From assembly GCA_948474755.1 (NCBI GenBank), contig CAOLHI010002538.1, positions 62,001-126,000 of the forward strand: 64,000 bases of DNA, written 5' to 3'. Below, in pieces: positions 3,081 to 63,540 of this stretch (position 1 is the stretch's first letter; each line of letters opens with the position of its first letter). The stretch is from Ctenosaura bakeri (lineage: Eukaryota; Chordata; Lepidosauria; Squamata; Iguanidae). The position numbers and the translations under genes were made by a program. The notes under the pieces were generated by a model that had not been told where the DNA came from, made no database searches, and saw only the letters and a list, made by a program, of their open reading frames with translations.

Positions 3081-6000
3081 TTACCACTGTCTGCAGCACA
3101 CAGTACCACGGGGGTCACACCTGCCAATCTGTGTGTACCCGACAGGGCAATGGCGAGACCTGCATATGCCACCAGCATGCTTACATTCAACAGGATTGGT
3201 TGGCCAGGAGAATGCTGGAACACAAGAAAGAACTGTCTGATATTTTCATTACACAAAAGTCATTGATCTTAGCATCATCACGCTTTCTAAGAACAGACTG
3301 AGTCAGTTTCAGAAGCTCATCTAAAGCAGACACAGATGTGTAGGGATGTAATTCTCAGTAGAAATTTTAGCAACTTTCTTCCCTATGCAAGGAAGTTTTC
3401 AAAAACTATGCAATTCTTGAAGACCATTTACAGTCCAGAACTTATTCCGTAAAAATTTTGCACCTTTTTTTTCCACAAAAACAGCACTTTTTTTTAATTA
3501 TTATTTGTATCCCGCCTCTCCATATGGATCGAGACGGCGAACAACTTACAAATAGCATGTATTTCGAAACATTTCTATACATACCCCCAACAAGCTGGGT
3601 ACTCATTTTACCGACCTGCGAAAGGATGGAAGGCTGAGTCAACCTTGGAGCCTGGCAGGATCGAACTCACAACCTTGTGGCTTGCAGTACTGGCATTTAA
3701 CCACTGCGCCACCAAAAAATATTTTCTGTTGCAGAAAACAGAAATTTCTGTGCAAAAATATTATCTTCTATGCAGAAACTGCTGCTTTCTGTGGGGATAA
3801 AAAAACAACATGTGACATTGTGCAGAATTAGTCCCCAAATACAAAGATTCTCAACAGTGAGAGGGCATCCTCAATACTTGCAAAACGCATTTTGACATTT
3901 TTTGGACATATTTGTTGACTATCTCCTATCTTCCAGATTAGAGATTAAGCTAGTTTGGTGAACTTTTTTTAAATATTTTACTGCAAGATGATGATGATGA
4001 TGATGTTTAAAAAATTAATAGTTGTTTTAATAGTATAACTGATTTTATTTGTATTTTACAGTGGATTATATATTGGATGTTTTTTTCAGCGAAAATTTTT
4101 AAACACTTGGAATTCACATTCCATCCCAACCTTAGAAAAACTCAGGATAGAACTCAAAGGTAGGAAGACTCCACCTTTGAATGCACTGTTATCTTATGAC
4201 TCACTCCATTGACTCTTCCAAATTAAAGACAAGTTGTATTAATTTGATGGGGGCTTAATTCTTTCATCAGTTCTTTTCACCTATGGAGGCTCACTTGGAA
4301 CGGCTCCTACATGTGCAGTGCTTGCAAAGACTGCTGTGAGGGAGTCTTAGCCGGCTGAGAGACTTTGCAAGGAGCACTTCTGCACTCAGTCCCAACTGAG
4401 CCACTGTACATCATTCATGCTACCGAAACTATTGTACATGGGTCCCACTTTTCAACCAGTTCTGTTTTCTGACAGTGCTCCTGTTCCTAGCCTGTCAGAT
4501 AAGTGGGGGAAGCCTGTAAATAAATAAATTACATTAAATAATAATCAGAATCCTGGTGTTGACTTATACACATATCAGTTCTCCTAAAAAAGTAGCTGAG
4601 CATTTTTATGGCTGTTTCTGTACTTCAAATGAATGAATTGGCACCCTGGAGGCACTGACAAAGAGAAATGCATCACCCAAGAATGCACAGCTGTAAAGCT
4701 GGAATCCTGTTGATTAACTCCAACTAAAGCAAACCCCATGAATGAACTGTTAAATGAAGAATCAACACTAGAAGTAATCCTATTGATTCAATGGTTTTAC
4801 TCTACTCAGGACAAACATGAAATGGTGATTCTTGTGGAATTCCATTTATGCAACCAGGAAACAGATTCTGTCCACTGTATAACGGAACCCCAAAAGTACA
4901 ACTGCATGTGCACATGAACTTAGACAAGTGTAGAGCACCTACAGGATCCTGGAACATTGAGGAGAAAAAACCTGGAACTTAGGTGTACTTCTCTTAGAAT
5001 CATAGAATCATAGAAATGTAGAGTTGGAAGAGACCACAGAGAACATCCAGTCCAACCCCCTGCCATGCAGGAACACCCTCAAAGCAATCCCGACAGATGG
5101 CCATCTAGCCTCTGCTTAAAAACCTCCAAAGAAAGAGACTCCACTACACTCCAAGACAGCATATTCCACTGCCGGACAGCCTTGACTATCAGGAAGTTCT
5201 TCCTGAAGTTCAAGTGGAATCTCCTTTCCTGCAGCTTGAATCCATTGCTCCTTGTCCTGGTCTCTGGAGCAGCAGAAAACAAGCCCTCTCCTTCCTCTAC
5301 ATGGCATCCCTTCAAATATTTAAACATGGTTATCATGTCCCCTCTTAATCTTCTCTTCTGCAGACTAAACATACTCAGCTCTCTAAGTCTATCCTCATAG
5401 GGCATGGCTTCCAGGCCCCTCACCATTTTGGTCCCCCTCCTCTGTACTTGCTCCAGCTTGACCATGTTCTTCTTGAACTAGGGTGCCCAGAACTGGACAC
5501 AGGATTCAAGATGAGGTCTAACCAAAGCAGAATAAAGTGGTACCAGTACCAGTACCTCCCTCGATCTAGACACCATACTCATATTGATGCAGCTGAGAAT
5601 TGCATTGGCTTTCTTGGCTGCCGCATCACACTGCTGTCTCATGTTCAGCTTGTGCTCTATGTAGACTCCTAGATCCCTTTCACACGTACTGCTATCCATC
5701 CACGTGTCCCCCATCCTATATTTCTGTATTCCATTTTTTTCTACCTAAGTGTAGGATCTTACACTTCTCTCTGTTGAATTTCATTTTGTTAGCCTTGGCC
5801 CAGCTCTCCAATCTATCCAGGTCATTTTGAATTCTGATCCTGTCCTCTGGCGTATTAGCAACCCCTTCCAATTTGGTGTCATCTGCAAATTTGGCGAACA
5901 TGCCCTCTATTCCTTCATCCAAGTCGTTGATAAAAAATATTGAACAGCACTGGGCCCAGGACAGAACCCTGTGGCACCCCACTAGTCACTTCTCTCCAGG

Positions 6001-7443
6001 ATGAAAAGCAGCCATTGGTGATCACCCTTTGGGTTCGGTCGGTCAACCATTTACAAATCCAACTAACAGTAGCCCTGTCCAGCCCGCATTTTACTAGCTT
6101 CTTTGCAAGAATGTCATGGGGAACTTTATCACTCTTCCAAGGGCTTAGTCATCCATCTCAAAAGTGGTGGTGAACGTGAAACTACATATTTCATTATTTT
6201 TTGATAGTCCACATTTCTCTCCAAATGGGTCTCAAAGCAGATAATGTAGACCAGTAAATCTTTGTCCATATTGTTTAAATGATGAATTTGTCAATGGTAT
6301 GTATTTCAGAGCTACCTTTAAGCAATATGGGCCAAAGATGAAGTGATTTTGGGGGCAAAGATGTTGGGAGCAAAACAGTGAATGCACTGTTGTAAGAATT
6401 CTAGTGTCCAGAACTCAGTTTGGACTTCAGTGGATTAGAGACTCCGAATCAATAAAAGAAATACTGTCAGGTATTCAGAATGTTAGTGTGGTGTGTCTAA
6501 GGTGGTGGACAGAGAGAAGAGGTCATTTTTCCCTTTGCAAGCACAGCTGCAAAGTTTGTCCATCTAATCTCCTAAAGTTTCCTATCCCATGGGAAAGCTC
6601 TAAGCGTGGGAATCGTGTGTGTAATGGTTCCAATGTTGTATGTTTGGGAGTGGCTAGCTCTGGTTAAAATCTTACATAATGTTTTGTAAGGTTCCCTTAC
6701 TTCTTTCCTTTGTTCCTTATTGCTTGGCCATTGGCCTTTGTTTCCTGTTTTTACCTGCTTCTAGACATAACTGTCTGAAGCACTTTGCTTATTCATGTAA
6801 ACTGCTATGCTTCAATAAAGTGTAATTTAGCTCAGATGCTTCTTGCATGGCTGTTTTTCCAGCCCAGGGTAACTGGCAACAATCGAGCACTGCTTCCCAT
6901 TTTTGTCATGCTCTGGGTTGCTCATCTAGGCACCCTAACAAATACCACCATAGAACCATACAGTTGGAAAGGACCTCAAGGATCGTCTCATCCAATCCCC
7001 TACCATGCAGAAATACACAACTAAAGCACTCCTAAGAGATGATCACCCAATATTTGTCCCAAGTCCTCCAAGAATGAGAGTCTACCACACTCCATGGAAG
7101 TCCATTATATTTACTCTGAAGTTCTTCCTAATGTTTAGATGGAATCTCTTTCCTTGGAGTTTGGATCCAATGTTTCGTGTTTTTGTCTCTGGAGCAGCAG
7201 AAGAGAACTTTGCTCCATCTTCTATATGACATCACTTCAGATATTTAAAATTGGTCATTGTGTCACCTCTCAGTCTTCTCTTCTGCAGGCTAAACACACC
7301 CAGCTCCCTAAGCCATTAGAACAGAAACACTAGCTCCACCCTTCTTCAGATTTCCCATTTAGCCAAAATTTAAAGGACACCTTACCTGAAGCAGTCATCA
7401 ACACAAAGAACAGAAAAGCTGAAAAGATGTTGAAGATCTTCAT
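3081..7443 (-). CDS. Beta-defensin gene A, two coding exons
   Basis: Secreted cationic host-defence peptide of the vertebrate beta-defensin family. Exon 1 is 7386-7443 (58 nt): ATG plus a hydrophobic 19-residue signal peptide starting MKIFNIF, ending in phase 1 before a GTAAGG donor. Exon 2 is 3081-3214, after a TTGTGTTCCAG acceptor. The join gives 63 residues with TAA at 3081-3083. The six cysteines follow C-x6-C-x4-C-x9-C-x6-CC, with GGIC before the second cysteine loop and a GxC element (IGRC) before the fourth cysteine. The region after the signal has about +6/-2 charges, and the end is CCRQW. The stop overlaps a donor-like GGTAAGTAAGA, so a further 3' untranslated exon is likely. The 4.2 kb intron holds a Sauria SINE, a CR1, a solo LTR and an older CR1. 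Expression is not shown by sequence; an ovodefensin is unlikely because the cysteine spacing differs. Confidence 0.9.
3497..3713 (-). mobile_element. Sauria-type SINE
   Basis: The minus strand starts with GGTGGCGCAGTGGTTAAATG (tRNA-like A box), then a B box in GTTGTGAGTTCGATCCTGCC. It ends in the BovB-like CCGTCTCGATCCATATGGAG and GGCGGGATACAAAT. Lies in intron 1 of defensin A. Confidence 0.85.
3714..3840. repeat. Palindromic TGCAGAAA-rich intron repeat
   Basis: Repeated inverted motifs of the type TTTTCTG/CAGAAAA. The same segment lies just 5' of exon 2 in B (38000-38160) and C (56780-56910). Longer related clusters are at 7838-8330 and 44040-44180. Confidence 0.5.
4995..6130 (-). mobile_element. 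CR1 LINE, 5'-truncated, in intron of defensin A
   Basis: Left end has CATAGAATCATAGAAATG, the reversed CR1 3' tail. The minus strand encodes, in several broken frames, the reverse transcriptase end ([10 protein letters not shown] at about 5880-5910) and the C-terminal region ([24 protein letters not shown]). It ends upstream at the thumb-proximal CDILAKK-like sequence. U2 and U3 lack it. About CTCT lies at both edges, a weak TSD. Confidence 0.9.
6465..6940 (+). mobile_element. Solo LTR with 5-bp TSD
   Basis: Starts TGTCAGG and ends CCTAACA, flanked by AATAC at 6460-6464 and 6941-6945. AATAAA occurs at about 6814. U2 and U3 have the uninterrupted site (CAATAAAGGGAATATGACC). It lies in intron 1 of defensin A, antisense to the gene. 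Confidence 0.8.
6946..7318 (-). mobile_element. Old CR1 fragment near exon 1 (U1)
   Basis: Diverged CR1 3' end (CATAGAACCATACAGTTGG on the left; SLQKRR-like coding at the right). The same insertion is at 39983-40345, 58144-58500 and, inverted, 63605-63905. It therefore predates the duplications. Confidence 0.8.
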
Positions 7444-7544
7444 GGCTGAAAACCAGGGCTGTTTCTAAGGAGAGATGGCAAGGTGAAGAGACAACCAACA
7501 GGATGTTGTCTCTGGAGATGGAGAAATGACTGTAAACTCCTAGT

Positions 7545-7552
7545 CTTTATAG
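7545..7552 (-). promoter_or_regulatory. TATA box of beta-defensin A
   Basis: Minus-strand CTATAAAG about 100 bp upstream of the ATG at 7443, which predicts a 5' UTR of roughly 70-75 nt. Just upstream (7553-7580) is a block containing ATTGTGTCACA-like sequence. The block is kept at the same place in genes B and C and in pseudogene D, which supports it being the core promoter. Confidence 0.65.
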
Positions 7553-7811
7553 GACAATTGTGTGATTGTGTCACACGCTATGGATGCTTGTAGGTGTTGG
7601 TTGAGGTTTTGTTGCAATTTGTGCACAGTAATAGTTGCTATGCAAATAGATTGCTATACAATTAGGAAAGGTTTTTGGGAAGCAATAGCCAAAACCAAAT
7701 ATTCATATATGGCAGGGAATTATCCAGAGTAGGCATGGGAATAGGGCATCATAGGAATATTATTATATCATAGGAATATTATTACAGAACACATTCCTAA
7801 GAAGGAAAAAA

Positions 7812-8340
7812 TGTTATCCTGTTCAAAATTCTATTATTTTGTTGTTATTCCACTCAAGATTCATACATGGTTGTTTTATGCAGAAAACATATTGCTGGGG
7901 AAACAATATTTCGATACAAAGATATTCCTGTGCAGAAAATGCCGTAATTGGAGATAACTATTTAAATACATTTATTTATTCATTCATTCTGTGTCAAATT
8001 CACACGTGGTTGCCATGCATAGAAAACAGCATTTTTGAGCAGAAAACAACATTTCATGCATGGAAAATAGTATTTGAATGCAGAAATATTAATTCCTGTG
8101 TAGAAAAAGCTGTTTTCTGCACAAAAATGCTATTTTCCATGGAAATCAACCATGTGTGAATTTGATGCAGAATAAATCCCCAATTACAGCATTTTCTGTA
8201 GAGAAATAAATATTTCTGCATTCAAATATTATTTTTCACCTAGAAAATTCTGTTTCATGTGCAGACAATGGTGTTTTCTATGCAAAACAACTGCATGTGA
8301 AGTTTGCACAGAATACATCCTGAATAGCAAAGAATCGCAT
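7812..8340. repeat. TGCAGAAA palindrome cluster upstream of gene A
   Basis: About 500 bp built from inverted TGCAGAAAA/TTTTCTGCA and CATGTGTGAATTTG-like motifs. No ORF of interest. It begins where U1 departs from U2 and U3. Confidence 0.45.
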
Positions 8341-8399
8341 CAGTCCAGAATTCTTCTCATCAGGATTTGATGAAGAACCATGAAATAATGAGCCCAGAC

Positions 8400-9190
8400 A
8401 CAAAAAATTGGATTAAATAAGGACAACTTTATTTGACCTAATCTATTTAAGTTGCCTTGAACTGGAAATGAAGAAGTGGGGAGAGAAACCTGATGTGGGT
8501 CCACCTGAGGCCAGATGTCACCACATGACTATCTCCTCAGCCTTCCTTTGGGTGAAACACCTCAGCCCCAAAGGCAACTCAAATCCTTGAGTTGCTCCTG
8601 GCCAGCCATAATCAGAAAGTAACCCAGGGAATTCCCACCCAAGCCTCACAACTGTACAAATGAGAGCCAAAATCTCAGGTTAATCTCAAGGGGAGCCTAC
8701 TTCCAGAGCTTTGGGACACAGAACCCTAAAGCGGGGGTTCCAGAGCCCTAACCTACCCCAAAAGAGCGCCAAAGGTGCATACCGAAGCCTTACACTCTCC
8801 CCTCAGTACCTGTTATGGACAAGAGAAAAGAGTCTGGTTTGTCCATTTCACCCACCAGATTGGCCAACACAGCCCTCACTCCCATTGCAAATTTCGCAAA
8901 AAGAACATATTCGTCTCTTCTGAGAAATGAATGTCATCCTTCTGGTAGAGCTCTGGCCATTTCAAAACTATGTTAGGGTGTGAAAGAAAGTGGTCCAACC
9001 TCCCTAGGATGGCTCTGTGGGCTGCAATGATCCAAAGAGGGTACATGAAGGCGTGGTCAGGCTTAAATAACCTACAGCTGCACCACACCACATGCCAAGT
9101 GCTAGTCACTAAGCATCCTGGTCTCTCTCATGGAGGCCACCCTTCCCTGAGCACCATTCAATGCCTGGGGCCAGGTAAGCATTCTCAACA
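8400..9190 (-). mobile_element. Retroelement fragment with SGNH-hydrolase-like end
   Basis: The minus-strand ORF at 8876-9109 ends with LYQKDDIHFSEETNMFFLRN, which resembles the DGVHLS block at the C-terminus of SGNH/GDSL-like domains carried by some DIRS-type retroelements. A reversed poly(A) signal (TTTATTTG) at about 8430 marks a possible 3' end. Present only in U1. The family call rests on this one motif, recalled and not searched. Confidence 0.35.
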
Positions 9191-10048
9191 TTAGAAAAAC
9201 CTGTGCTTCAACCAATTTTTTTGAACATTTTAAAATATCCTTTACATCCCTATGTTGCCATGCTAAAATAACAGTGTTGGCTTTGGATGCTGTGTACTTT
9301 CACTTGGGGCAGCAGTATGTGTGAGTGGGTACCAGTTCAAATCTAGTACAAGTTGCAATTCCAAGCCTCCTCCGGGTTTCTTTTGGCACTGAAAACTGGT
9401 GGTGAGGAAAATTACTGGTGGGAAACAGAGCAGCAGGTTGTCTATAGCACAGAAAAGCATCCCTGCCCTCTAGTGGATGCATTCAAGCATCTCCTCACCA
9501 GCAGGAGATCAAACTAGCCAATGTTCCTGAGCCCTGTTCCTGGACCATGAGTCCCATGGTCTGGAGTACACCCCTTCTCCCAAAGAATGAGGCAAGTGGA
9601 AGATTATTCCCTGAAGTTATAAAAGTCAATACTAATCCAAGGAAATTGAAATGCACAGGTGGGGCCCACCTCCCACCCTAATAGCAGAAAAAGAAAAGAG
9701 AAAGAAACTCGTTACCTCCCTGGTCTGTTCTCACTTGTGGATCTGTTCCCAACATCAAACTGTCAGGTTATAGCAAAAATAATTACGAGGGCTTGCTAAA
9801 CTCAACATCACTCATTCTATGCCACTGAATCACTGTTAACCTGTGGCCATTTGCTGACAAGATTTCAAGAACCCATCTGCCTGGTGGCAAGAGCCATTGT
9901 CTATTTTGCTATTTGATATTTTGTCTCAGACAGCAAAATATCTGAGGCCAGCACTACTTCTTTCATTCCTTCTTTTTCCTTGAAAAAAGCAACTAAAAGC
10001 AACAATTGTACTTACATTTGAATAATGGGTAGATAAAGAATATTATGA
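9191..10048. other. Unassigned U1-specific sequence
   Basis: No match to the other units and no convincing ORF or repeat end seen. Short ORFs at 9263-9482 look like chance. Confidence 0.4.
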
Positions 10049-10700
10049 TAGCTAGTGTACTGCAGTGGTTTGAGCATTAGACTATGACCCTGGAAACTAA
10101 GGGCTTTTCCGCACTTTGGAGAGGAAATGGGGCAGTCCGTTACTCACCAGACTGGCACATTCCCCCCCCCGATGATCCACAACGGTCCGGAGCAGTGTGC
10201 CTGCGCTACACACTCTCTGGCGACAAAAATGGAGGCTTCTGATTGGCGGAGGCTCTCCACCAACCGGAGAAGCTCGCCAGCCGGAAGCCCGCCCCGGAAG
10301 ATCTGCAGACTTGCCCTGGCGTGAGCCTGTAGATCTATACTTCACAGAGCAATGGACTGGAGCGCACTACACTATTGAAAGTCCTCTTTTAATCAGTCTT
10401 TCAATAGCACGGGCAACCACCAGTTCTGGACATTCCGGAGCGGGCTGAAGTCCGGACAAACGGTAAGTAGTCCAAACTCAGTTTGCTCCCAAATGCGAAC
10501 GTCCTCGCGGGAGGACGCACCGCCCCATTTTAAAAACCAAGTGCGGAAAGGTCCATAGTTTCAATTATCTTTTCGGCCACAGAGACCCACTGGGTGATCT
10601 TCAGTGCATCTTACACTTTCAGCCCCAGAAAAACCCATGATAGGATTCCTGCAGAGTCACCATAAGTCAGAAAGGACTTGGAAGAACACAGTAACAAAAA
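10049..10700 (+). mobile_element. tRNA-derived SINE split by a DNA element
   Basis: The SINE head (GTGTACTGCAGTGGTTTGAG) runs to about 10100, and the rest (ACAGAGACCCACTGGGTGATC, then CACCATAAGTCAGAAAGGAC) resumes at 10555. The gap is filled by the element at 10101-10554. Confidence 0.6.
10101..10554. mobile_element. hAT-like MITE with terminal inverted repeats
   Basis: Left end GGGCTTTTCCGCACTTTGG; right end CCAAGTGCGGAAAGGTCC. The two are inverted repeats. The interior is GC-rich with CpGs and is shared, in the opposite orientation, with 1-290. It lies inside a SINE. No transposase. Confidence 0.65.
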
Positions 10701-11122
10701 CAAAGTATATTATAACCATGTAGTCTTTATTTTACACAATTAAGGATTTAGAGCAGCTAAAGATGTTTTCTACATTTAGCATCTGAAGAAATGGGTTGCA
10801 TACCCTCCCAATTGATCCTTGTTGTCCCACTTTTTCAGGTGCTTTTACAGAGCTCCCATTTCCCTCTCCTCCCATTTTCTCCTTCCTTTTCAGCCTACTT
10901 CCATTGCTGCAAACTGAATTCAAAGTCCAAAAGTAGTTTGCACTCCATCAGCTTAGATGCAGGAAGAAGAAGCCAAGGCAGAATCTTGCCCTTCCTACCT
11001 CCTTCCACTTTCCCCCTTTGCTATTGGCTTACTTCAATTGCTGCAAACTAATTCCGAAGTGTAAAAGTAGTTTGCACTCAATTATCCCTCAGAAGGAGGG
11101 AGAGAAGGCCTAAATACCCTAG
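10701..11122. other. U1 spacer with duplicated 90-bp motif
   Basis: Two related copies of CCATTGCTGCAAACT...AAAAGTAGTTTGCACTC occur at about 10900 and 11035. The second is shared with U2-U4. Non-coding. Confidence 0.4.
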
Positions 11123-11222
11123 AGGCACCAGATCCCATCTTATCTTGGAAGCTAAACAGGGCCAATCAACCCTGGCTAGTACTTGGATGGGAGACCACCA
11201 ACCAATAGCAGGGGCTGTAGGT
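11123..11222 (+). repeat. 5S rRNA-derived repeat, U1
   Basis: Matches the 3' two-thirds of vertebrate 5S rRNA: CTTGGAAGCTAAACAGGG, GGCTAGTACTTGGATGGGAG and GCTGTAGG. The start of 5S is missing and the internal control region is diverged. This fits a 5S-derived SINE or pseudogene, not an rRNA gene. Confidence 0.75.
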
Positions 11223-12116
11223 TCCTTTCAAGTTGACACTGAAACCCAGGGTGACTTAATCATTACATTGACATGGCAAACAACCACCTCCACTGCCTGG
11301 ATACTTCCATTAAACCATACCTTTCATTCCAAAGTTATTTCTGCAAATGAAGGTGTATTCTCTCATACCTTTCCAGCCAAATCTCTGGGTTAGAGACAGA
11401 AAGGCACAGAGACATTCATTGCAAAACACATTGTGCATTTACTTAACATCTTTGAAAAGTAGGAAGTTTTCATAAAGTAGCAGTTAATGTCATTTGAAAT
11501 GTGGGGATAGAGAAGAGTTCTATGGAAACTGCAGACTGCCAAAAAGATAAATGAATGGGTCTTAGGGTTGATCAAGCTTAAACTCTCCCTAGAAATCAAA
11601 ATGATCAAACTGAAATTATAGTAGTTTGATCATATAACAAGATGACATGACTCATTAGAAAAGTTGAAAGTGCTTTGTAAAGTGAGAAACAGTGGGAAAA
11701 GAATAAGATTGCATTACAGGTGGACAGACTCAATCCAGAATCCAGATCCTGAAAAGAGCTGTTTTAGAGGTCCTTCTGTTCATAGCATCACCTTAAGTCA
11801 AAGTCAATTTGATTACAACTGGCAACAAAGCAGTTAGTGAGAAGAATTTCAGAGGACAGGCACAACACAATTTTGTAACCGTTTGAACAGTGAGCCATTA
11901 CAGCAGGAGTGGGCAACTGCCAAGGAGTGGGGACACAGTAGGCTTCATGGTATTTTAGAGGATTAAACCTATCACCATCCTGCATTCTACCCCATGCCAA
12001 TTATTTTTTTAAAAAAAAAATCCAAATATCAGTCTATTATGCTTTGGTTATACCTCATTTGAAATACTGTGTCCAGTTCTGGGCACCTCAATTCAAGAAG
12101 GATATCGACAAGCTGG

Positions 12117-12921
12117 TGTGTCTAGAGATGTGATAATGGGGTTTCCCATTATCTAGACTTGGCTGAAGGGGGATACTTCCCTCTTCAGGTAAAACAAGGG
12201 TTAATGAGGTGTTGGAATTAGGTTACATTTTACTGTGGGTCGGCCTCACAGGTCAAGGGGCGGGGGAGAATTGCCCAATCAAAGGAAAAGAGGTGAGCAT
12301 CTTTGAGATGCTTCAAGGAAGAAGTTATAAAAATCCTTGAGAGGCCATGTGGCAGAGAGACAACAAAGGAACCTCCTGGAGATGGGATCTGTGCCAGTCA
12401 TAGGCTGCAGGCCTAGGCCTCGCCTCCTGGTCTCATTCCTCTCTTAGACCATCTAAGCCTGTGAACCCAGATGTGAGTAACTAGAACATTAGGTAGTTAG
12501 TCGCGTTAGGACTGTTTATAATTTTGGAGGTTGGTTGATCTTAAAGAATATATATTTTTATAACTACTTGTAACTTAAGCGTACCTGGGAGGGGGGAGCC
12601 TCTCATGTGTATTATTGTCTTGTTTATTTGCATGCCTTGAAATAAATGCTTTTCTGTAAAACCTCTGTTTTCTCTCCATTCCCATGCCTTTCTTCAGCAC
12701 ACGCTAGATAGAACTTCCTTCACTCAGAAGGAGAGGGAAGGGAAGGTCCTTAAGCCTAGAGATTGTCAATCCACTGAGCAGGGTCCGACTGTACTGTTCA
12801 GTTAATTCAGAATTCAGTGGGTGGTGGCAGCAAGAATTAGTAAACGCTGGGGAATTTCCTGCTCCTTTCCAAGGGTAGAAGTCAGGCTTGGGGGGGGGCT
12901 GGAAGTAAACTCAGTATGACA
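12117..12921 (+). mobile_element. Solo LTR inside old CR1
   Basis: Starts TGTGTCTAGAG and ends CAGTATGACA, with AATAAATGCTT at about 12641. The flanking CR1 lost about a dozen bases at the join, so no clean TSD is seen. Strand set from the poly(A) signal. Confidence 0.6.
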
Positions 12922-13066
12922 GGAGGATGACCAAAATGGTGAAGGGTCTGGAAGCCATGCCCTATGTGGAACAGCTCAGGGAGCTGTGGATGTTTAGTCT
13001 GCAGAAGAGAAGGTTAAGAGAGGACATGATAGCCATGCTTAAACATTTGAAGGGATGTCATTATAA

Positions 13067-14430
13067 ATAATTATCGCCCAGTCAGCCTGACATCAGTACC
13101 CGGAAAGATCCTGGAGCAGATCATTAAGCAGTCAGTTTCTAATCACTTAGAAAGCAACGTGGTAATCACGAGAAGTCAACATGGATTTCTCAAAAATAAG
13201 TCATGCCAGACTAATCTTACCTCTTTTTATGATAGAATTACTAGCTTGATAGATGAAAGGAATGCTGTGGATGTAGCATATCTCGATTTCAGTAAGGCCT
13301 TTGACAAAGTTCCCCATGATATTCTTGCAAAGAAGCTAGTAAAATGTGGGCTGGACAGGGCTACTGTTAGTTGGATTTGTAATTGGTTGACCGACCGAAC
13401 CCAAAGGGTGATCACCAATGGCTGCTTTTTATCCTGGAGAGAAGTGACTAGTGGGGTGCCACAGGGTTCTGTCCTGGGCCCACTGCTGTTCAATATTTTT
13501 TATCAACGACTTGGATGAAGGAATAGAGGGCATGTTCGTCAAATTTGCAGATGACACCAAATTGGGAGGGGTTGCTAATACGCCAGAGGACAGGATCAAA
13601 ATTCAAAATGACCTGGATAGATTGGAGAGCTGGGCCAAGGCTAACAAAATGAAATTCAACAGAGAGAAGTGTAAGGTCCTACACTTAGGTAGAAAAAAAT
13701 GGAATACAGAAATATAGGATGGGGGACACGTGGCTGGATAGCAGTACGTGTCAAAGGGATCTAGGAGTCTTCATAGACCACAGGCTGAACATGAGTCAGC
13801 AGTGTGATGTGGCAGCCAAGAAAGCCAATGCAATTCTCGGCTGCATCAATATGAGTATGGTGTCTAGATCGAGGGAGGTACTGGTACCACTCTACTCTGC
13901 TTTGGTTAGACCTCATCTTGAATCCTGTGTCCAGTTCTGGGCACCCCAATTCAAGAAGGATATTGACAAGCTGGAGCAAGTCCAGAGGAGGGAGACCAAA
14001 ATGGTGAGGGGCCTAGAAGCCATGCCCTATGAGGATAGACTTAGAGAGCTGGGTATGTTTAGTCTGCAGAAGAGAAGGTTAAGAGGGGACATGATAGCCA
14101 CGTTTAAATATTTGAAGGGATGCCACGTAGAGGAAGGAGAGGGCTTGTTTTCTGCTGCTCCAGAGACCAGGACAAGGAGCAATGGATTCAAGCTTCAGGA
14201 AAGGAGATTCCACCTGAACCTCAGGAAGAACTTCCTGACAGCCAGGGCTGTCCGGCAGTGGAATCTCCTGCCTCGAAGTGTAGTGGAGTCTCCCTCCTTG
14301 GAGGTTTTTAAGCAGAGGCTTGATGGCCATCTGTCAGGATTGCTTTGAGGGTGTTCCTGCATGGCAGGGGGTTGGACTGGATGGCCTGTGTGGTCTCTTC
14401 CAACTCTAGATTTCTATGATTCTATGATTG
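13067..14430 (+). mobile_element. Young CR1 LINE with reverse transcriptase remains
   Basis: 5'-truncated CR1, the best preserved in the window. 13159-13518 reads [16 protein letters not shown] sequence, then [13 protein letters not shown] and [16 protein letters not shown] one-base gain in a T run near 13498 shifts the frame to 13451-13717, which carries FADDTKLGGV with the catalytic DD. A stop follows EI at about 13717. 13719-14348 is an open 209-residue C-terminal stretch ([31 protein letters not shown]). The tail has ATGATTCTATGATTG. The reverse transcriptase catalyses target-primed reverse transcription, but this copy cannot make a full protein. Confidence 0.92.
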
Positions 14431-14763
14431 TATGTTGAGGAGGGTGCAGACTTGTTTTCTGCTGCTCCAGAGACTAGGACAAGGAGCAATGGATTCAGAA
14501 ACGGAGATTCTATCTGAACCTCAGGAAGAAATTCCTGATGATCAGGGCTGTCTGGCAGTGGAATATGCTGCCTGGAAGTTTTTAAGCAGAGGCTGGATGG
14601 CCACTGTTGGGAATGCTTTGATGGATGTTCCTGCATAGCAGGGAGTTGGTCTCGATGGCCTCATGGTCTCTTCCAACTCTATGATTCTATGATTCTGGCT
14701 CCAACCAACTCTCTATACTATGGGAGAGCAGCACTCTGGGTTCCTTTAGACCTGGAACAAACA

Positions 14764-14764
14764 A

Positions 14765-14795
<31 letters not shown>

Positions 14796-14910
14796 TGTAT
14801 GTATGTATATATGAATATATATGTATACAATGTATACATATGTATGTATGTATGTATATGTATACAAACAAATATATGTATATGTGTGTATGTACATATA
14901 TATATGAAAT
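14764..14910. repeat. ATGT/TATG microsatellite
   Basis: Tandem TATG units followed by mixed TATA/TGTA repeats. Open reading frames across it are only repeat translation (YIHT on the reverse). Confidence 0.9.
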
Positions 14911-14989
14911 GAAATAGCCTGAGACCCAAAACATAAGAAAACAGCCCCACATCTTTTAAAAGGAGGAGCTGAAATTGTAGCAAGTTGAG

Positions 14990-16224
14990 GAGCACTGAAG
15001 GCCTTAAAACTGGACTTGGCAATCATATGTTGCTGGTGGGATCTGCTGTTCCACAGCTGTGCATTGTGGCAAAATAAGGACAACAAAGAAAACTATAGCC
15101 AGCAAAAATCTATTCAGAACTCACAAAAAGGAAATGTAGCAGGTTGACCTGGATAATTCTTTAAAAATCAGTTTTATGCAATGCATTTGTTAGTCAAATT
15201 CAACAAAGGAAAGGCATTTGAACACCTTTAGGTGTGACTAGTGGCAACATGAAATTTGCATTATCACAGATTAGGCGCCCATGTTTCTAGGAATCAGTGC
15301 CAAGGTAAATGTTTCAAGGAGACAAATTGAAACTGGCTATTGACACACTTCGAAGACAAACACATTTGTGTTGCAAGGGTTTGGGCTGATGCTAAAGAAA
15401 CCTGATAAGCTGGGGCATTTACTGACAGGTACACAAGCCAGGAGAGATGAACAACAGATATGCACCTTTCATTGATGCAAATGAAGCTGCAAAATTCACT
15501 CATTACATGTTTGTCTCTTTTCCTAGGTTGCCTGTGTTCCAGAGCACAGATGTAGAATATTCAAAAGTGTCCCAGTTTTTCTAGCACTGCTTTATACTCA
15601 CTTTTTAATCTTCTGGCACTCTGCTGGCAGTGCAGTAAGATAATTCAAGAAAGCTTCACAGGCTTCCTGTGTTGTACACTGTATCACAAGGCTGCAGCAA
15701 GGGTGGTGACAGCTTCAAAGCTTGCTTGTTTTTCCTGAAAGAATCTTTCATATGTTCAGTAGAAGGTTGCTCTCCCTTCCCTACTACAGCCGATACAGGA
15801 GTCTTTTACAAGCACACATGCACACAGAGAGGGGGGGGAGTACCATTTATTGATAAGAAATAAAAATGGTAAAACGAAAAACTGAACTGTAGCTTGCTTA
15901 CCCTTTTGAAATTTTCCAAAAGAAATTCTCAGATGAAAAAAACAAACACAAAATACATGTATTAGGGAAGAATATATAAAAGACTCTTTATATCAGTGAA
16001 AAGAACATTCAGAAATGCCTTATTCTAGAAATGCTTACAAAAATGCGTATATTATGCAAACTTGAGATTAAAAATATATGTATTGGGGAAAACGCACAAA
16101 AATAAATTCAGGACAAACCCAACTTAAGACTGAAAAGAATAGAAACAGATCGAGATCAAAATTGACAATGTATACCTAATTAAAATAGTATTCTTAAGGT
16201 AATGAGCAGAATTTTGCTGCTACG
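14990..16224. other. Non-coding U1 backbone upstream of gene A
   Basis: Matches 41500-42640 in U2, 60420-61190 in U3 and, inverted, 61200-61570 in U4. Short ORFs ending SLKHxPWH recur but change length and frame between copies. No exon is supported. Confidence 0.5.
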
Positions 16225-16697: not shown

Positions 16698-16728
16698 ATG
16701 AATGAATGAATGAATGAATGAATGAATA
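16696..16728 (+). repeat. (AATG)n microsatellite
   Basis: Seven to eight GAATGAAT units at the end of the L2 fragment. Confidence 0.85.
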
Positions 16729-53640: not shown

Positions 53641-54907
53641 GGATTTTAATTAGTGTGAGATGAAGAGAATTCAACATAGATCAAACAGATTGTGTTGAAA
53701 GCACAAATGTGAAGCAATTCAGGAAAAAGGCTGACAGAATCAAGCCATGGAGATCCATCATGTTCCCAAAACCATAGTATTACCTGCAGAAAGAGAAAGA
53801 CCCTGTAAGATTCAGCCATTTTCAAAAGTGGAATTCTTTAATCCATATCTACAAACTGAAAATCAAAATTAAATGGGTAGATGCTAGTGTCAAATAAAAG
53901 GTAAAAGAAGAAAAACAGATTGTTATCAGCCTTGTTATGTGAAATAACTTATCAGACCATTAAAGTGAATACTTCCCTCACAAATCTGAAATATTCCCAA
54001 TGTTTGTAGTTCACCTTGATATAATACAATCTATTACCTTTCAATAGCCAGTGAGTTCACTAACTCATGAAAATACTGGGACAGATTCCAGCACAGTGTG
54101 AACAGACTTCCACGTGCTTCTTCCTTTAACCACAAAGTTCCAAACCACATTGTATTCCTGCTAACTGGGCAACAGCTCAGCAGTGACGCTTCAGCAGATA
54201 GAGTTGCCTACTTGTCCAAGAAACAGAATAGCTCTCCCAATGTTATGATTCTAGGACTATAGCTCAACATAAGTAGATAAGGAAGCATCGCTCAGGCAGA
54301 ATGGGTAATTTTCAAACTCTCTATACTCTGACTACAAATGAGGTGTGTATAATTTGTATATCAGCTCAGCTCATCCTTCCTTTAGAAGGCAGCTGTTGAA
54401 GAAGGAGGGGGAGGAAAACTCCCTATACCCTACCTTAGTTGTCCCTAAAGCAACCCACCAACACCAACACCAATTTTTAAAAAATTTGGCATAATTTGAA
54501 GATTATTTTTTGCTAAAAAAAAATGCCAAAACCCTCCTATAGGCACAAAAACCCTCTAGAACCTCCACTCATAGGTCCATTTTCATTGAAGTCCCACCTT
54601 AAATGTGAACAGGAAATTATGTGACATCACTTCCTGCTGAATTTTCACAGAGACTCAAAAGAAAAGGGGAAAATTTACTTGCTGAATTGGAGGTAGTGGA
54701 CTAGAGTCCATGAAACCTTAAGCTAGAATTTCTTTTCCCAGTTAGCCTCAAAGCTCTTACTAGATTTATTTATGACACATATCAGTGTAACTCCTGGTTT
54801 TGGGCAGTATGTGTAGCTTTCATAAGCTGTGAATTCTTGTTAGATCCAGTAGTGTATGCACACTGCACAATTATAGCAGCTGAAGAATACTTTAACCTCC
54901 ATGGCAC

Positions 54908-55788
54908 TGTTACCATGGTTCTGTCATGCCTGGTGATAGCATGAGATATCTAGTGCTATCAAACTTATTTGGCCTTTACTTGACCTTTTTCCACCACCCT
55001 GCTCCACGTGTTTGCAAGGGCCACCGGACAAGCACGTAAACAGGCGTGGCCATTAATGGTTGGACATTCCAATTCCCACTTAGGCAGGCAGATTAATGCC
55101 ACTCCGTTGCTTCAGGGACCATTTCTTGCAGACACACCTTGCTTAAGCGTGACTCTACACAAAGACACACGGTCAAGAGCTGCCACTTTCTTTATGCTGA
55201 GCCATGTCATCCAGCGCTAAGCTACTCATGTAAAACCTGACCTTTTCCAGTGCTTTTGTCCCGCTCCAAACTTCCTTTGTTCTCACTGAGCATGGCATGG
55301 CCTGTAGGCACAATCCATCCTATAAAAGAACCCCTGATTCCAAGTGCCCCTCAGATCACTCGCTTGGACCACCTCGGATTGCTCCTGAGTTCCATCCAAC
55401 CTTGCTGTCAGTTTGTCCAGAGAGCTCCCCTCAGCGAAGCGCGCTGAGCTTTCTTCCCTACAATCCTCCGCTTTTCTCCAGGACTACAAGAAAAGGTGTC
55501 GTATCACCCATTTCCCCCGAAAATGATTATTTCTAATTTCTAGTTAGCTGTGTGCTTGTGGTGTCTTTTCTGTTGTTTGTTCTTTAATAAAACTATCATT
55601 TTTACTATTTTTAAACCGCACCTGACTACTTTTCTGATCTGACACTGTATACATTGGGTGGCAAGATCCCAGCTAAAGTTACCCTGCCCCTTGCTAGCTT
55701 AAGAGAGTGCTTGAGTTAATTTCCCCATCTTGCTTTTTATTTGGTTATTTGGGCATTCCTCTCGGGATCCCCACAATACAGGGTAACA
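54908..55788 (+). mobile_element. Solo LTR with GCAC TSD
   Basis: TGTTACCATGG at the start and ATACAGGGTAACA at the end, flanked by GCAC at 54904-54907 and 55789-55792. U2 shows the empty site (CATGGCACCAACCTATGG at 37253). TTTAATAAAAC at about 55582. About 2.1 kb beyond the likely 3' end of gene C. Confidence 0.9.
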
Positions 55789-55844
55789 GCACCAACCTAT
55801 GGAATCCAAGGTTTTGTAGTGTCATGAACTACTCAAAGAGCTGA

Positions 55845-56050
55845 GAGTGGCGTAATGGTTTGAATCTTGAAACAAAATTATGGGGGATCAGGGTTCAGCC
55901 ATAGAAACAAAGTTGGATGACTTTGGGCAAGTGACACTCTTTCGGCCTTAGAGGAAGGCAACAGCAAACCTCCTCTGAATAAATTTTGCCAAGAAAACCT
56001 TATGATAGCATTGCCATAAGACAAAGTTGATTTACAAGAATAACAATTAG
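55845..56050 (+). mobile_element. tRNA-derived SINE (U3 copy)
   Basis: Orthologous to 2247-2459 by position and flank: GGCGTAATGGTTTGAATC, then TTTGGGCAAGTGACACTC and AGCATTGCCATAAGAC. Confidence 0.65.
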
Positions 56051-56302
56051 ATACTTAAATTCTCAAGCAGATCCCATCAACTATAGTGTTATAATTTGCT
56101 GGCACAGCATTGTATGTACAAAACTACAGATTCCAGGATTAAACAGGATGAAATCATAGGTAGTTAAAGTGGTATCAAAATGCAATAATTGTGTACTTTC
56201 AATACTCCTGAAGGCTCTTCTCATTTTGGATGGATAAAACAAACAAAGAGATAAAATAAGCCAAACAAACAAGAAGACAGTATTTCTCTATAAGATTCTT
56301 AC

Positions 56303-58634
56303 TTATTGCCTTCTGCAGCACACAACACCAAAACCGCCACATGTGCCAATGGATACAAAGTTGGGGGGGCAACGGCGACGACTGCATATGCCACCAGCAC
56401 GGCGACATTGCATAGGATTTGTTATCCAGGAGAATGCTGGAAGTAAAGAAAGAGCTGATTGATATTTTCATTACACAAAAGTCACTTCTCTTAGCATCAT
56501 TGCTTTTTCTAACAGCAGCTTGAGTCATTTTCAGAAGTTCATCTGGGGCAGATGTAGGAGTGCCGGGATGTAATTCTTCAATAATCTCGTTCTCAAAAAA
56601 AGCAATGAAAAATTTAGAATCATAGAGGTGGAAGAGACCACAGAGGCCATCCAGTCTAACCCCCTGCCATGCAGGAACACACATCAAGGTACTTTAGCAA
56701 TTTTCTTCCCTGTGCAAGAAAGCTTTCAAAAACTATGCCACCTTTGAAGACCACCTACAGATCAGGACTTAGTCTGTGCAAATTTTGCACATTTTTTGGC
56801 ACACAATCAGCAGGAAACAGCATTTTCTGTCCAGAAAAAAGCAATTTCTGTGCAGAAAATGTTGCTCCTTATGGAGAAAAAAAGCACATGTGACATTGTG
56901 CAGAATTAGTCCCCAACTGCAAAGATTCTTATCAGTGAGAGGGTCTTCTCAATACTCGGAAAACATGTTTTGACTATTTTTCAACTATTTTCAAACCTTT
57001 TTCCCATCCATACAAAGAGGACCTTCTTTATGGTGGCTAGTTAAGAGGACTTTTTAAATATTTTACTGCATGAAAATGATGAAAATGTTTAAAAAATTAA
57101 TAGGTCCTTTAACAGGATAACTGATTTAATTAGTATTATAAGATGGAATATTTAATGATTTTTCAGCTGAAGTTTTAATCTTTCAGAAATCACCTTCCAT
57201 CCCAACCTTAGAAAAAAGGCCGGATAGATCTCAAATACCAGGGCATCAAAAGGCGGAAGTTTCCTGTATCTGAGGATTTACTCTCTTGCCTCTTCCAAAT
57301 TAAGGAAAAATTCTATTAATTTGATGGGGTTTTCACTCTTTCATCTGTTCTTCTCATCTACAGAGGCTCACTTGGAATTGCTTGCATGTGTGCACCGCTT
57401 GCAAAGACTGCTGTGGGGAGTACTTAGCTGGTTGAGAGGTCTGCAAGCAGCACATGTGTGGTCAGTCCAAAATGAGCTTCTGTACATCCTTCACGTTCCC
57501 TAAAGTATGGTACACGGTTCCCGCTTTTCAACCAGTTCTGTTTTCTGACAGGGCTCTGGTTCCTAACATGTCAGATAAGTGGAGGAAGTCTGTAAATAAT
57601 ACTCTACTCAGGAGTAACATGAAATGGTGATTCTTGTGGAATTCCATTTATGCAACCAGGAAACAGATTCTCTCCATTGTATAATAGCCCCCCAAAAGTA
57701 CAGCTGCATGTCTAAGTGAACTTACACAAATGTAGAACACCAACAGGATCCTGACACATGTATTTATACCACTGAGCAACAAAATCTGAGACTTATGGGT
57801 ATGTCTCTGCCAAGGGCTTAGTCGTCCATCTCAACAGTGATGGTGAGCTTAACAGTACTTATTTCATTATTTTTTTTAGCTTATCTTTCTCCATAAATGG
57901 GTCTCAAAGCACATAACTTAGGACAGTATATATTTATACATATTGATGAAAGGATGCATCTCTTAATGGTGTGGGCCTTCAAAGCTATCTTTAAGCAAGA
58001 TGACCCAAAAATGAGGTGATGTCAGCAGCAAAGATGTCTGGAGCAAAACCATGAAAGAACACTTGGTTCTAAGAATTCCAGGGTCCAGAAATGAGTTAGG
58101 ACTTCCATGGATTAGAGGATCCTTATCAATAAAAGGAGTACAACCACAGAACCATAAAGTTGGAAGGGAATTCAAGGACCATCTCATCCAACACCTGGCA
58201 TGCAAAAATACATAGCTTAAGTACTCCTGAGAGGTGATCACCTAATGTTTGCATAAGGTCCTCCAAGAAGGAGAGTCTACCACACTCCATGGAAATCCAT
58301 TACATTTATTCTCAGGAAGTTCTTCTTAATGTTTAGATGGAATCCCTTTTCTTGGAGTTTGGATCCATTGTTTTGTGCCCTTGCCTCTGAAGCAACAGAA
58401 GAGAACTTTATCTAATATACAACATTGCTTCAGATATTTAAAGTTGGAGGTTGAGTCACCTCCCAGTCTTATCTTCCGCAGGCTAAACACACCCACCTCC
58501 CTAAACCCTAAACAGAAACGCTAGATCCACCCTTCCTCACATTTCCCACTTAGCCAAAGTTTACAGGATACTTTACCTGGAACAACCATCAACACCAAGA
58601 ACAGAAAAGCTGAAAAGATGCTGAAGACCTTCAT
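56303..58634 (-). CDS. Beta-defensin gene C, two coding exons
   Basis: Third intact paralogue. Exon 1 is 58577-58634 (19-residue signal beginning MKVFSIF, phase 1, donor GTAAAG). Exon 2 is 56303-56436, after TTTACTTCCAG. The product is 63 residues with C-x6-C-x4-C-x9-C-x6-CC. It is the most basic of the three: CRRAGGIC, CSRRRC and CCRRQ give seven arginines and no acidic residue after the signal. Its exon 2 ends CAATAAGTAAGA, so the upstream GT donor possible in A and B is gone while the TAA stop and the GTAAGA just after it are kept. The 2.1 kb intron is the shortest because the CR1, LTR and hAT insertions of A and B are absent; it has a 75 bp CR1 scrap at 56616-56690. Confidence 0.9.
56616..56690 (-). 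mobile_element. Short CR1 tail in intron of defensin C
   Basis: AGAATCATAGAGGTGGAAGAG to CATGCAGGAACAC, a 75 bp CR1 3' end absent from A and B. Confidence 0.75.
58144..58500 (-). mobile_element. Old CR1 fragment near exon 1 (U3)
   Basis: Same ancestral insertion as 6946-7318 and 39983-40345. Confidence 0.8.
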
Positions 58635-58732
58635 GACTGAAAAACAGGGCTGCTTTTAAGGAGCTGCCAAGATGAAGAGACAACCAATAGAAGGTTATCT
58701 GAAGAGCTGGAGAAATGACTATAAGCTCCTAG

Positions 58733-58741
58733 TATATATAG
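58733..58741 (-). promoter_or_regulatory. TATA box of beta-defensin C
   Basis: Minus-strand TATATATAC-type box 99 bp upstream of the ATG at 58634, with the same upstream ATTGTGTCACAGG block as genes A and B. Confidence 0.65.
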
Positions 58742-58995
58742 GACAATTCTATGATTGTGTCACAGGCTATGAACACTTGTAGGTGTTGGTTGATGTTTCC
58801 TTGCAATTTGTGCACAGTAATAATTGCTATGCAGAGAGATTGCTATTCAGTTGGGAAAAGATCTCCAGGAAGCTGTAGCCGAAACAAAATGTCCATTAAT
58901 GGCAGGAAACTGTCCAGAGCAGGTATGTGAATGGAGTGTAATCGGGACATTGTTAAAGGACACATTCCTAAGTGGAAAAAAATGAAATGTGCAAA

Positions 58996-59140
58996 TGAGG
59001 AATCCAGGGGAATTAGCAGACTACAGGCTAAATGTGAGTGAACCGGATGATGCAGCGACCAAAAAGCCAATCCCCTTCTGAGCTGCCTCAACACCAGCAT
59101 CATGTCCTGACTGAGGGACGTAGAAGTTCTACTCTACTTC
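58996..59140 (+). mobile_element. CR1 scrap upstream of gene C
   Basis: GACTACAGGCTAAATGTGAG, then AAAAAGCCAATCCCCTTCTG; counterpart of 40829-40985. Confidence 0.65.
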
Positions 59141-59228
59141 AATGGCTGCAAACTGATTTCCATGTGCAAAAGTAGTTTGCACTCAATTATCCCTCAGAAA
59201 GAGGGAGAGGTGGCCTAAATACCCTAGA

Positions 59229-59324
59229 GGCACCAGATCCCAGCTTATCTTGGAAACTAAACCGGATCAACTCTAGTTAGTTTTTGCATGGGAGACCACC
59301 AACCAATATCAGGTGCTGTAGGCT
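59229..59324 (+). repeat. 5S rRNA-derived repeat, U3
   Basis: CTTGGAAACTAAACCGGATC, GCATGGGAGACCACC and GGTGCTGTAGGCT. Confidence 0.7.
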
Positions 59325-59856
59325 ATACCAACAGCTTTCAAATTGACATTGAAACCTATAGTGAATTCACTATTACATTGACATGGTAAGCAACAGCCTC
59401 CACTGTCTGGATACTTCTATTAAACCATAACTTTCATATCATAACTATTTCTGCAAATGAAGGTGTATTCTCTCATACCTTTCCAGCTGCAAAATATATT
59501 GTGCATTTAACATTTTTTAGAAAGTAATAAGATTTCATAAAGTACCAATTAATGTTATTTGAAATGTGGTGGTAGAGAGGAGTTCTGTGGAAACCACAGA
59601 TTGCCAAAAAAGATAAATGAATGGGTCCCAGATTTGATCAAGCCTGAACTCTTCCTGGAAACCAGAATGACCAAACCGAAACTGTCATAGTTTGACCATA
59701 TAACAAGCTGAAATGACTCCTTAGAAAAGTTGATAATACTTTGTAAAGTGAGAGGCAGTGGAAAAAGAAGAAGGCCACATTACAGTTGGACAGTCTCAAT
59801 CCAGAACACTACAGCCCTGAGCCAGTAAGATCCTGAAAAGGAAGGTCCTTTGGTTC

Positions 59857-60036
59857 ATAGCAATAGCAGTTACATTTACAGACAACTTATCAGTGCTAAG
59901 CACTTCCAAGCAATTTACAATGTATAAGTTAATTGCCCCCAACAAACTGGGTACTAATTTTACGAAGGATGGAAGGATGAGTCAACCTAGAGCCCTGGAG
60001 GATCAAAATCACAATGTTGTGGCTGCAGTAGCATTC
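59857..60036 (-). mobile_element. Sauria-type SINE, short-tail form
   Basis: Reverse of the 30953 form: TAGCAATAGCAGTTACATTT at the left, then CAAACTGGGTACTAATTTTA and GGATGAGTCAACCTAGAGCC. Confidence 0.65.
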
Positions 60037-61195
60037 ATAGCATCACCATAAGTGAAAGTCAACTTGAATACTTGTAACAGTGATTGAACCGTGATCCATT
60101 ACAGCAGGGACGAGTGATTGCCAAGGTATAGTACGTTTTCATGGGACCTTAGATGACTAAACCTATCACCATTCCACATCCTACCCCATATCAATAATTT
60201 TTTTAAAAAATGCAGATAATACTTTTATTCCAAGCAAGTCTCCATGCTATGGGAGACCAGCCCTCTGGATTACTTTAGACCTAGAACAAACTTTTTTACA
60301 TATAAATAAAGTGAAATGAAATAACCAAAGAGACCAAAAACATAGGAAAATGGCTCCAAATCTTTTTAAAAGAAGGAAAAATTGAAATTGTAGCAAGTTA
60401 GAGACCACTGGAGACCTTAAAACGGACTTGACAATCACATGTTGCCCGTGGATTCAGGACTCACCAAAGGGAAATGTAGCCAGGTCGGCCAGGATAATTA
60501 CTTAAAAAAATGTTTTAGGCATCCAGTTGTTAGTCAATTTCAACAAAAGGAAAGGCAGCAAAATACCTTTAGGTGTGACTAGTCGCCACATGAAATTTGC
60601 ATTCTCACTGATCAGGCGCCTAGCAATACGTGCCCAGGGAAATGTTTCAAGGAAGCCAAACCGAAATCAACTATAGACACATTTTGAAGACAAACGCATC
60701 TGTGTTGCAAGGGTTGGGCTGATGCCAAAGAAACCTGATAATCTGGTGCATTTATTGGCAGGAGTGCAAGCCCACAGGGATGCATAGCAGCTATGCATGT
60801 TTCAGTTGCTGAGCTAAGCAATTTAGAAAAGCCTCTCAGGCTTCCCATGTTGTATACTGTATGCAGCGAGGGTGCGGCAGCTTCAAAGTTTGCCTGTTTT
60901 TCCTGAAAGTATCTTTGTAGTATTCAGTAGAAGGTTTCTCTCCCTGCTCCACTACAGCCAATACAGGTCTCTCTTACAAACACAAGCGTACACACACATA
61001 CACACAGAACTATTGGTTGCTAAGAAATAAAAATGAGAGAGCTTTTAATCATGGTAAAACTAAACTAAAACTAAATCATGGTAAAACTAAAAAGCTTGTT
61101 TACCCTTAGAAAGAAAAAAATTGTCCAGTCCAAAAAATGAATACAAAATATATGAATTAGGAAAGCATACATACAAGTCTCTTTATATACATATA
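60037..61195. other. Non-coding U3 backbone up to the inversion
   Basis: Matches 11850-12010, 14900-15300 and 15640-16010 of U1. No gene seen. Confidence 0.5.
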
Positions 61196-63165: not shown

Positions 63166-63415
63166 TTTGCCCCCCTTTTTTTTGGCTTAGGAATGTGTCC
63201 CCTAACAATGTTCCTGTTACACTCCATTCACATGCCTATTCTGAATTATTCCCTGCCGTATAAGGATATTTGGTTTGAGCTATAGCTTCCTGACATCATT
63301 GCCATCTTAAATAGCAAATAGTTTGCATAGCAATTATTACTGGGCAGAAATTGCAGCAAAACCTCAAGTGACACCTAGAAGTGTCCATAGCCTGTGACAC
63401 AATCATACAATTGTC

Positions 63416-63540
63416 AATATATACATGGAGATTTCAGACATTTCTCCTACTCCTCAGATAACCTTCTATTGGTTGTCTCTTCATCTTGGCATCTCCATAA
63501 AAACAGGCCTGTTTTTGAGCCATGAAGATCTTCAGGTAAG
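63416..63540 (+). pseudogene. Beta-defensin D: promoter plus broken signal exon
   Basis: A plus-strand fourth copy in an inverted unit. It keeps the upstream TGTGACACAATCAT block, a TATA-like ATATATACA at 63416-63424, a 5' UTR like that of gene A, and ATGAAGATCTTC at 63522. Only 14 nt of exon 1 remain (63522-63535) before GTAAGG, against 58 nt in the other genes. Gene A has a CTTCA at both edges of the missing 44 bp, so the loss looks like a deletion between short direct repeats. It removes the hydrophobic signal core and changes the splice phase from 1 to 2, so exon 2 (beyond the window) could not be read correctly. Rescue by another start or exon cannot be excluded. Confidence 0.8.

Follow-up and report, generated by a model that had tools for sequence, protein, structure and literature searches.

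Does a stretch of contig C2538 contain working beta-defensin genes that escape detection as single open reading frames (ORFs), or the remains of such genes? The stretch analyzed here, referred to below as the window, comprises bases 62001-126000 (64 kb) of this 249,663-bp contig, which belongs to a genome of 1.90 Gb in 8006 contigs; the rest of the contig was compared alongside. Our analysis indicates that the window is very probably a piece of a sauropsid, and probably squamate, beta-defensin array, whose genes encode six-cysteine peptides predicted to be secreted and which has grown by duplication of whole units. It represents a local array, resolved in detail, of antimicrobial-peptide genes that are probably functional and whose exons are too short and too far apart to be detected as single ORFs.

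Exon structure and beta-defensin identity

An earlier note on this DNA had proposed three pairs of exons, 2-4 kb apart, that have matching splice phase and encode the pattern C-x6-C-x4-C-x9-C-x6-CC. All three pairs are present where they had been placed, and their cysteine spacing agrees with that proposed. The genes, here named A (7443-3081), B (40475-37602) and C (58634-56303), all lie on the minus strand (window coordinates are used unless a contig position is given). Each consists of a 58-nt exon 1 encoding a signal peptide and an exon 2 of 134-137 nt, and in all three the splice junction is in phase 1, with G before the junction and CA after it. Their parts are as follows.

7546..7551, minus strand: gene A TATA box, 108 nt upstream of the ATG
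7386..7443, minus strand: gene A exon 1 (ATG, signal peptide, 58 nt, phase-1 end, donor GTAAGG)
3215..7385, minus strand: gene A intron 1, 4171 nt
3081..3214, minus strand: gene A exon 2, mature beta-defensin, stop codon within a phase-2 donor GTAAG (33.7 bits to PF00711)
40576..40581, minus strand: gene B TATA-like box (TATATA), 106 nt upstream of the ATG
40418..40475, minus strand: gene B exon 1 (ATG, signal peptide)
37739..40417, minus strand: gene B intron 1, 2679 nt
37602..37738, minus strand: gene B exon 2, mature beta-defensin, stop codon within a phase-2 donor GTAAG (24.2 bits to PF00711)
58735..58740, minus strand: gene C TATA-like box (TATATA), 106 nt upstream of the ATG
58577..58634, minus strand: gene C exon 1 (ATG, signal peptide, donor GTAAAG)
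56437..58576, minus strand: gene C intron 1, 2140 nt
56303..56436, minus strand: gene C exon 2, mature beta-defensin, stop retained, donor there lost (42.6 bits to PF00711)

In its strict form, the six-cysteine motif occurs three times in the window and in none of 200 first-order Markov simulations of the 64-kb window; in a relaxed form it also occurs three times, against 0.075 expected. Two tblastn matches considered as extra defensin fragments, at 43446-43493 (E 0.38) and 26723-26782 (E 0.66), have interrupted frames and no motif, and were set aside as chance. Rfam and tRNA scans of the window gave no matches.

The array runs on past the window on both sides. Contig C2538 contains six intact genes of the same subfamily, with exon 2 at contig positions 14.7, 36.9, 65.1, 99.6, 118.3 and 151.1 kb, which have exon lengths, phase and acceptor in common. 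In all six pairs the signal-peptide exon has an open frame, a hydrophobic core (mean hydropathy 2.2-2.8), a donor, an acceptor and phase 1, as predicted for its splicing, and the AG of the acceptor is preceded by a pyrimidine-rich stretch. A TATA-like box lies 99-108 nt upstream of the ATG in all eight first exons checked, out of the ten copies that exist.

The proposed identity of these genes as beta-defensins is supported by Pfam, by sequence and fold searches, and by exon structure and clustering. Firstly, all three window genes exceed the curated cut-off of PF00711 (21 bits) and have the motif C-x6-C-x(3-5)-C-x(8-10)-C-x6-CC by which PMC6716921 defines beta-defensins. Secondly, a search of the PDB with a profile of the three genes returned seven sequences at E<=0.01, all of them beta-defensins except one labelled 'Chimeric Peptide'. 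Thirdly, an AlphaFold model of the exon-2 peptide of gene C (three-sequence alignment; pLDDT 85.1, pTM 0.57), the one gene modelled, is predicted to adopt the fold of a helix and a three-stranded sheet. The best Foldseek match of this model is human beta-defensin 2 (1fd3; E 1.5e-3, TM 0.87/0.91, rmsd 0.8 over 40 columns), with 40% identity and identical cysteine spacing in the alignment, and the first 12 of its 44 matches are beta-defensins. Human beta-defensin 2 is, however, a different gene from another species, and the window peptides would be expected to form the beta-defensin disulfides C1-C5, C2-C4 and C3-C6. The net charge (K+R minus D+E) is +4 for A, +3 for B and +7 for C.

Some results count against this identification. 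None of the 44 Foldseek matches reaches E 0.001, which is common for a 43-residue chain. A protein-database search with the joined gene A peptide gave no candidate homologue, and one with the A-C alignment gave four candidates, none at E<=0.001. Furthermore, CTSB and TRAM2, either of which would flank the syntenic beta-defensin cluster, and XPO1, another gene expected there, were not found on the contig at E 0.01, a weak negative because the queries had no positive control, and XPO1-like exons detected in a CRM1_C search lie on contig C5031, not on C2538.

We consider the window genes to be real and probably functional beta-defensins, new members of a known family. An assignment to the ovodefensins was rejected, as the spacing 6-4-9-6 in all three genes differs, when compared by eye, from the Komodo VkOVOD spacings in the excerpt of PMC6716921. 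Each gene would be read from its own TATA promoter, and its signal-peptide exon would be spliced in phase 1 to the cationic six-cysteine exon. The peptide would be secreted and adopt the beta-defensin fold, and most likely it would bind and permeabilise microbial membranes at epithelia or in granulocytes. Transcription, secretion, disulfide pairing and antimicrobial action of the A-C peptides are what we infer from the genes themselves.

Growth of the array and divergence of the mature exon

A genome search with PF00711, in which 150 of 243 candidates were scored, gave at least 54 matches, all at or above the cut-off and one with an internal stop codon; this number is a lower bound for places, not proven genes, and many of the matches have E > 0.01. 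In 14 control genomes no PF00711 match over the cut-off was obtained. The matches are clustered: nine defensin-like exons lie on this 250-kb contig, eight of which are among the genome matches. Three defensin-like exons of other types are located at contig 168.8, 187.7 and 202.9 kb. The 168.8-kb exon is outside the Pfam match list, and is recognised by its motif and by 52% identity over 25 residues to the Komodo peptide VkBD80a. A loose motif scan of the contig gave 11 rows, nine of which were kept; the other two, at contig 15863-15967 (plus strand) and 86617-86709 (minus strand; window 24617-24709), were dropped as chance matches.

In addition to the intact genes, the contig contains one truncated exon 2 (20.2 kb) and one exon-2 fragment at the contig edge. 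The ten copies of exon 1 comprise six that are paired, one that is broken and three that are intact and have no exon 2 of their own. These three orphan copies, each with its promoter, lie beyond the window on the minus strand (contig 7509, 52944 and 127323) and may serve as alternative first exons or be leftovers. Of the 17 genome matches of the exon-1 module, 16 are on contigs C2538, C6035, C6589, C4775 and C205, all with beta-defensin matches, and the 17th is a 55-nt match. On this distribution, the idea that the module is a dispersed repeat was rejected.

The DNA around the three window genes is itself duplicated, in the following units (no strand assigned).

290..17085: unit A, surrounding gene A (78.5% identical to unit B over 12 colinear blocks)
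34071..43018: unit B, surrounding gene B (80.5% identical to unit C over 8 colinear blocks)
53642..61069: unit C, surrounding gene C

The units have 8-14 colinear blocks in common, 5.4-6.0 kb in total, at 78.5-80.5% identity, introns and intergenic DNA included. A CR1-like sequence, recognised by eye, directly follows exon 1 in all four copies in the window, and therefore whole units were duplicated after that insertion. The array grew as multi-kilobase units were duplicated; the mature exon then diversified and some copies decayed, in a process of birth and death. The earlier note had spoken of a lineage-specific expansion. Expansion by duplication is well founded, but lineage specificity could not be demonstrated: in a peptide tree the nine family members do not separate cleanly from the Komodo sequences (a node of 12 includes VkBD25, 45 and 59, with support 73), and the duplicated units have diverged by ~20%.

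The fourth copy in the window, which had been described as broken and inverted, is indeed so, although it was recovered as exon 1 only.

63226..63621, plus strand: inverted copy, broken (promoter and exon 1 with its ATG at 63522; exon 2 not found)

In this copy 44 of the 58 nt of the signal exon are deleted, and a search with the exon-2 profile (E<=1) found no partner exon 2 on either strand of contig 118.6-150.9 kb. Compared with genes A-C, it is 81.6-84.3% identical on its intron side and 79.0-81.7% identical on its promoter side. It is about equidistant from A, B and C and so did not arise recently from gene C, the gene closest to it in the window.

The six paralogs are comparable and their introns can be aligned, which makes them an internal neutral yardstick for defensin diversification. 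Over the 15 pairs of the six intact array genes, mean K80 was 0.54 at mature codon positions 1+2, 0.36 at position 3 and 0.12 in exon 1. The noncoding values were 0.24 for the adjacent 3' part of the intron, 0.25 for the 3' flank, 0.34 for the 5' part of the intron and 0.20 for the promoter. Mature positions 1+2 lie above the adjacent 3' intron part, the 3' flank and the promoter in 15/15 pairs each, while the cysteines are retained, and their excess over adjacent intron and 3' flank was reached by none of 20,000 column permutations. A codon model for the six genes gave an omega of ~1.7, with a log-likelihood of -728.48 when omega was free versus -730.95 at omega 1 (twice the difference ~4.9, p ~0.03). 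At the level of the sequence, these values suggest rapid diversification of the mature exon on a conserved scaffold, and hint at positive selection. According to the excerpted text of PMC515299, positive selection on the mature region has been described for mammalian defensins; the same text reports that synonymous sites of chicken defensins are nearly saturated and that the single close pair was not significant.

Several observations argue for caution in this respect. Mature positions 1+2 exceed the 5' intron part in only 10 of the 15 pairs; each of the other five, which are lower, includes the 36.9-kb gene, in which the start of the intron has diverged unusually far (by our own average, mean 5' intron K80 is ~0.18 without this gene). 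Pairwise estimates with NG86 place nonsynonymous above synonymous divergence in only nine pairs, with one tie and five lower. When nine members are analysed, omega drops to ~0.9-1.0, a value that does not differ from 1. Gene conversion of the flanks could also make the exon look fast. An omega above 1 was thus rejected as firm proof of positive selection, because it vanishes once the three further members are added.

The value near 1 for nine members would also suit a different explanation, namely that the three genes are recent pseudogenes that are intact by chance within a decaying array. Decayed pieces, moreover, are common on the contig (the broken exon 1, the truncated exon 2 at 20.2 kb, the exon-2 fragment at the edge and the three orphan exon-1 copies). 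However, all six full pairs retain start, frame, donor, acceptor and all cysteines despite ~20% divergence of their flanks, and in a substitution-only simulation of neutral decay (0.12 per site) the chance of six open frames with all cysteines was ~2e-7. In addition, the signal exon (K80 0.12) is more conserved than the promoter (0.20) and the intron start (0.34, or ~0.18 without the 36.9-kb gene). We therefore consider it very unlikely that these are pseudogenes, and retain the view that they are functional.

The stop codon within the splice donor

The array has the ordinary features of birth and death, and its most interesting part lies at the end of exon 2, where the stop codon often overlaps a splice donor. 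Genes A and B have their stop, TAA, within TGGTAAGT, in which GTAAG follows a phase-2 exon end. We read 12 defensin exons: those of the six array genes, three on contigs C6035 and C205, and the three other exons on C2538. The stop codon falls within a phase-2 donor GTRAG in eight of them, including all three of other types (7/11 without the weaker 168.8-kb exon). Outside the window, the overlaps on C2538 are at contig 151071-151204, 168786, 187736 and 202888. Gene C, the 36.9-kb gene and the 24.1-kb exon on C6035 have lost the donor GT and retained the stop, and the 14.7-kb gene has GTRAG at the stop, but in a shifted frame. By our own arithmetic, a given position would read GTRAG with a probability of 1/512 at equal base use. 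Because the genes are related, the eight overlaps reflect shared ancestry rather than eight independent events.

The overlap likely points to an ancestral third exon. Because of the splice-donor sequence at the end of exon 2 in A and B, two exons may not be the whole of these genes: they may have a third, unseen exon, as in birds, in which case the stop at the end of exon 2 would really be intron. The position of the phase-2 GTRAG, exactly at the stop in eight of 12 exons with three of other types among them, argues for this, as does the distance to the first polyadenylation signal (AATAAA or ATTAAA), which lies 503-1064 nt past the stop in the six genes. Chicken Gal/AvBD genes provide a precedent. 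As described in the excerpted PMC515299, they are like the window genes in encoding single-domain peptides (except Gal11), in being clustered and in having signal and mature parts on separate exons. They differ in having four exons (in Gal12 the last two are fused) versus the two seen here, where a terminal exon is suspected and was not found; in all of them but Gal12, the last exon carries a few C-terminal residues together with the 3' untranslated region (UTR). A short third exon is also mentioned, for some cases, in the Komodo paper (PMC6716921).

On the other hand, a search downstream of exon 2 yielded no convincing acceptor and only a weak candidate, a ~72-108-nt block common to the six genes and lacking a clear pyrimidine tract. 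Gene C and the two others without a donor, moreover, can only end at the stop there. We give a third exon in A and B almost the same weight as its absence; it would alter the C-terminus only, not the family to which the peptides belong. Alignment columns 15-60 past the exon-2 stop have a pairwise identity of 0.91-0.95 among the six genes, which then falls to 0.84 and lower; these conserved columns fit an intron start or a 3'UTR element.

A more speculative possibility, which we put forward tentatively and regard as rather doubtful, is that the array shows the loss of a defensin terminal exon in progress. Multi-exon genes of sauropsid type would become two-exon genes, as in mammals, by way of a 'pre-loaded stop': losing splicing would cost almost nothing, because a phase-2 donor GTAAG or GTGAG supplies an in-frame TAA or TGA. 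If this is true, A, B and their relatives with both donor and stop could make two C-termini, and genes of the type of C would end at the stop. The overlap would then offer a concrete, testable route for last-exon loss in beta-defensin genes. Among the titles listed in literature searches touching on exon structure, none concerned such an overlap, which does not establish that none exists.

Reptile relatives and repeated sequences

For comparison with reptiles, 41 of the 66 Komodo-dragon peptides and one turtle peptide were compared by sequence. The Komodo dragon has 66 beta-defensin genes in clusters (PMC6716921, in excerpt), and the likeness to the present array extends to six-cysteine peptides, a signal exon and a mature exon, arrangement in arrays and a comparable number (at least 54 Pfam matches here versus 66). 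Comparison with reptile defensins, which the earlier note had proposed, gave no clear one-to-one ortholog of A-C among the 41 of 66 Komodo peptides, the best having 39-49% identity over 35-39 residues. A spacing of x6 between the last cysteines, as in genes A-C, is given for 16 of the 66 Komodo genes in PMC6716921. For the exons of other types, the closest of the 41 peptides are VkBD80a for the 168.8-kb exon (with the identity given above), VkBD56 for that at 187.7 kb (41% over 32 residues) and VkBD62 for that at 202.9 kb (49% over 43). The last exon matches VkBD62 with E 9e-16, versus 7e-9 for the next Komodo peptide, and is the best hint that the DNA comes from a squamate. This origin, also put forward in the earlier note, is plausible by sequence, but closeness to the Komodo dragon excludes little. 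The excerpt of PMC6716921 states that no squamate genome with an intact defensin cluster was available at that time.

Squamates are also known for defensin-like peptides of venom or oral glands (PMC4078517 and PMC9138766, in excerpt), and the window peptides might be of this kind, like crotamine or helofensin, instead of host-defence defensins. The fast evolution of their mature exon speaks for this, and crotamine is likewise a six-cysteine, cationic, secreted peptide with a defensin-like fold. However, the spacing of its cysteines is 6-6-11-5, by eye from the sequence in the excerpted PMC4078517, versus 6-4-9-6 in all three window genes. Furthermore, each window gene encodes one domain, and the best hits in the PDB and fold searches are to beta-defensins of mammals and birds. 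We consider a venom or oral-gland role extremely improbable, and host-defence beta-defensins remain our preferred reading.

Several apparent mobile elements were observed on the contig. On the plus strand of the window, 13051-14348 is a piece of a long interspersed nuclear element (LINE), in which a reverse transcriptase ORF (13051-13515) that passes Pfam RVT_1 is followed by a CR1-like 3' part, as judged by eye. The segment 13302-14429 has a 94.7% identical inverted copy at 4998-6131, which suggests fairly recent LINE activity. On the minus strand of the contig, gag/env-like ORFs at 44.9-46.5 kb, recognised by eye, possibly belong to an endogenous retroelement, and long overlapping retroelement ORFs at 212-217 kb appear by eye to be DIRS- or long terminal repeat (LTR)-like.

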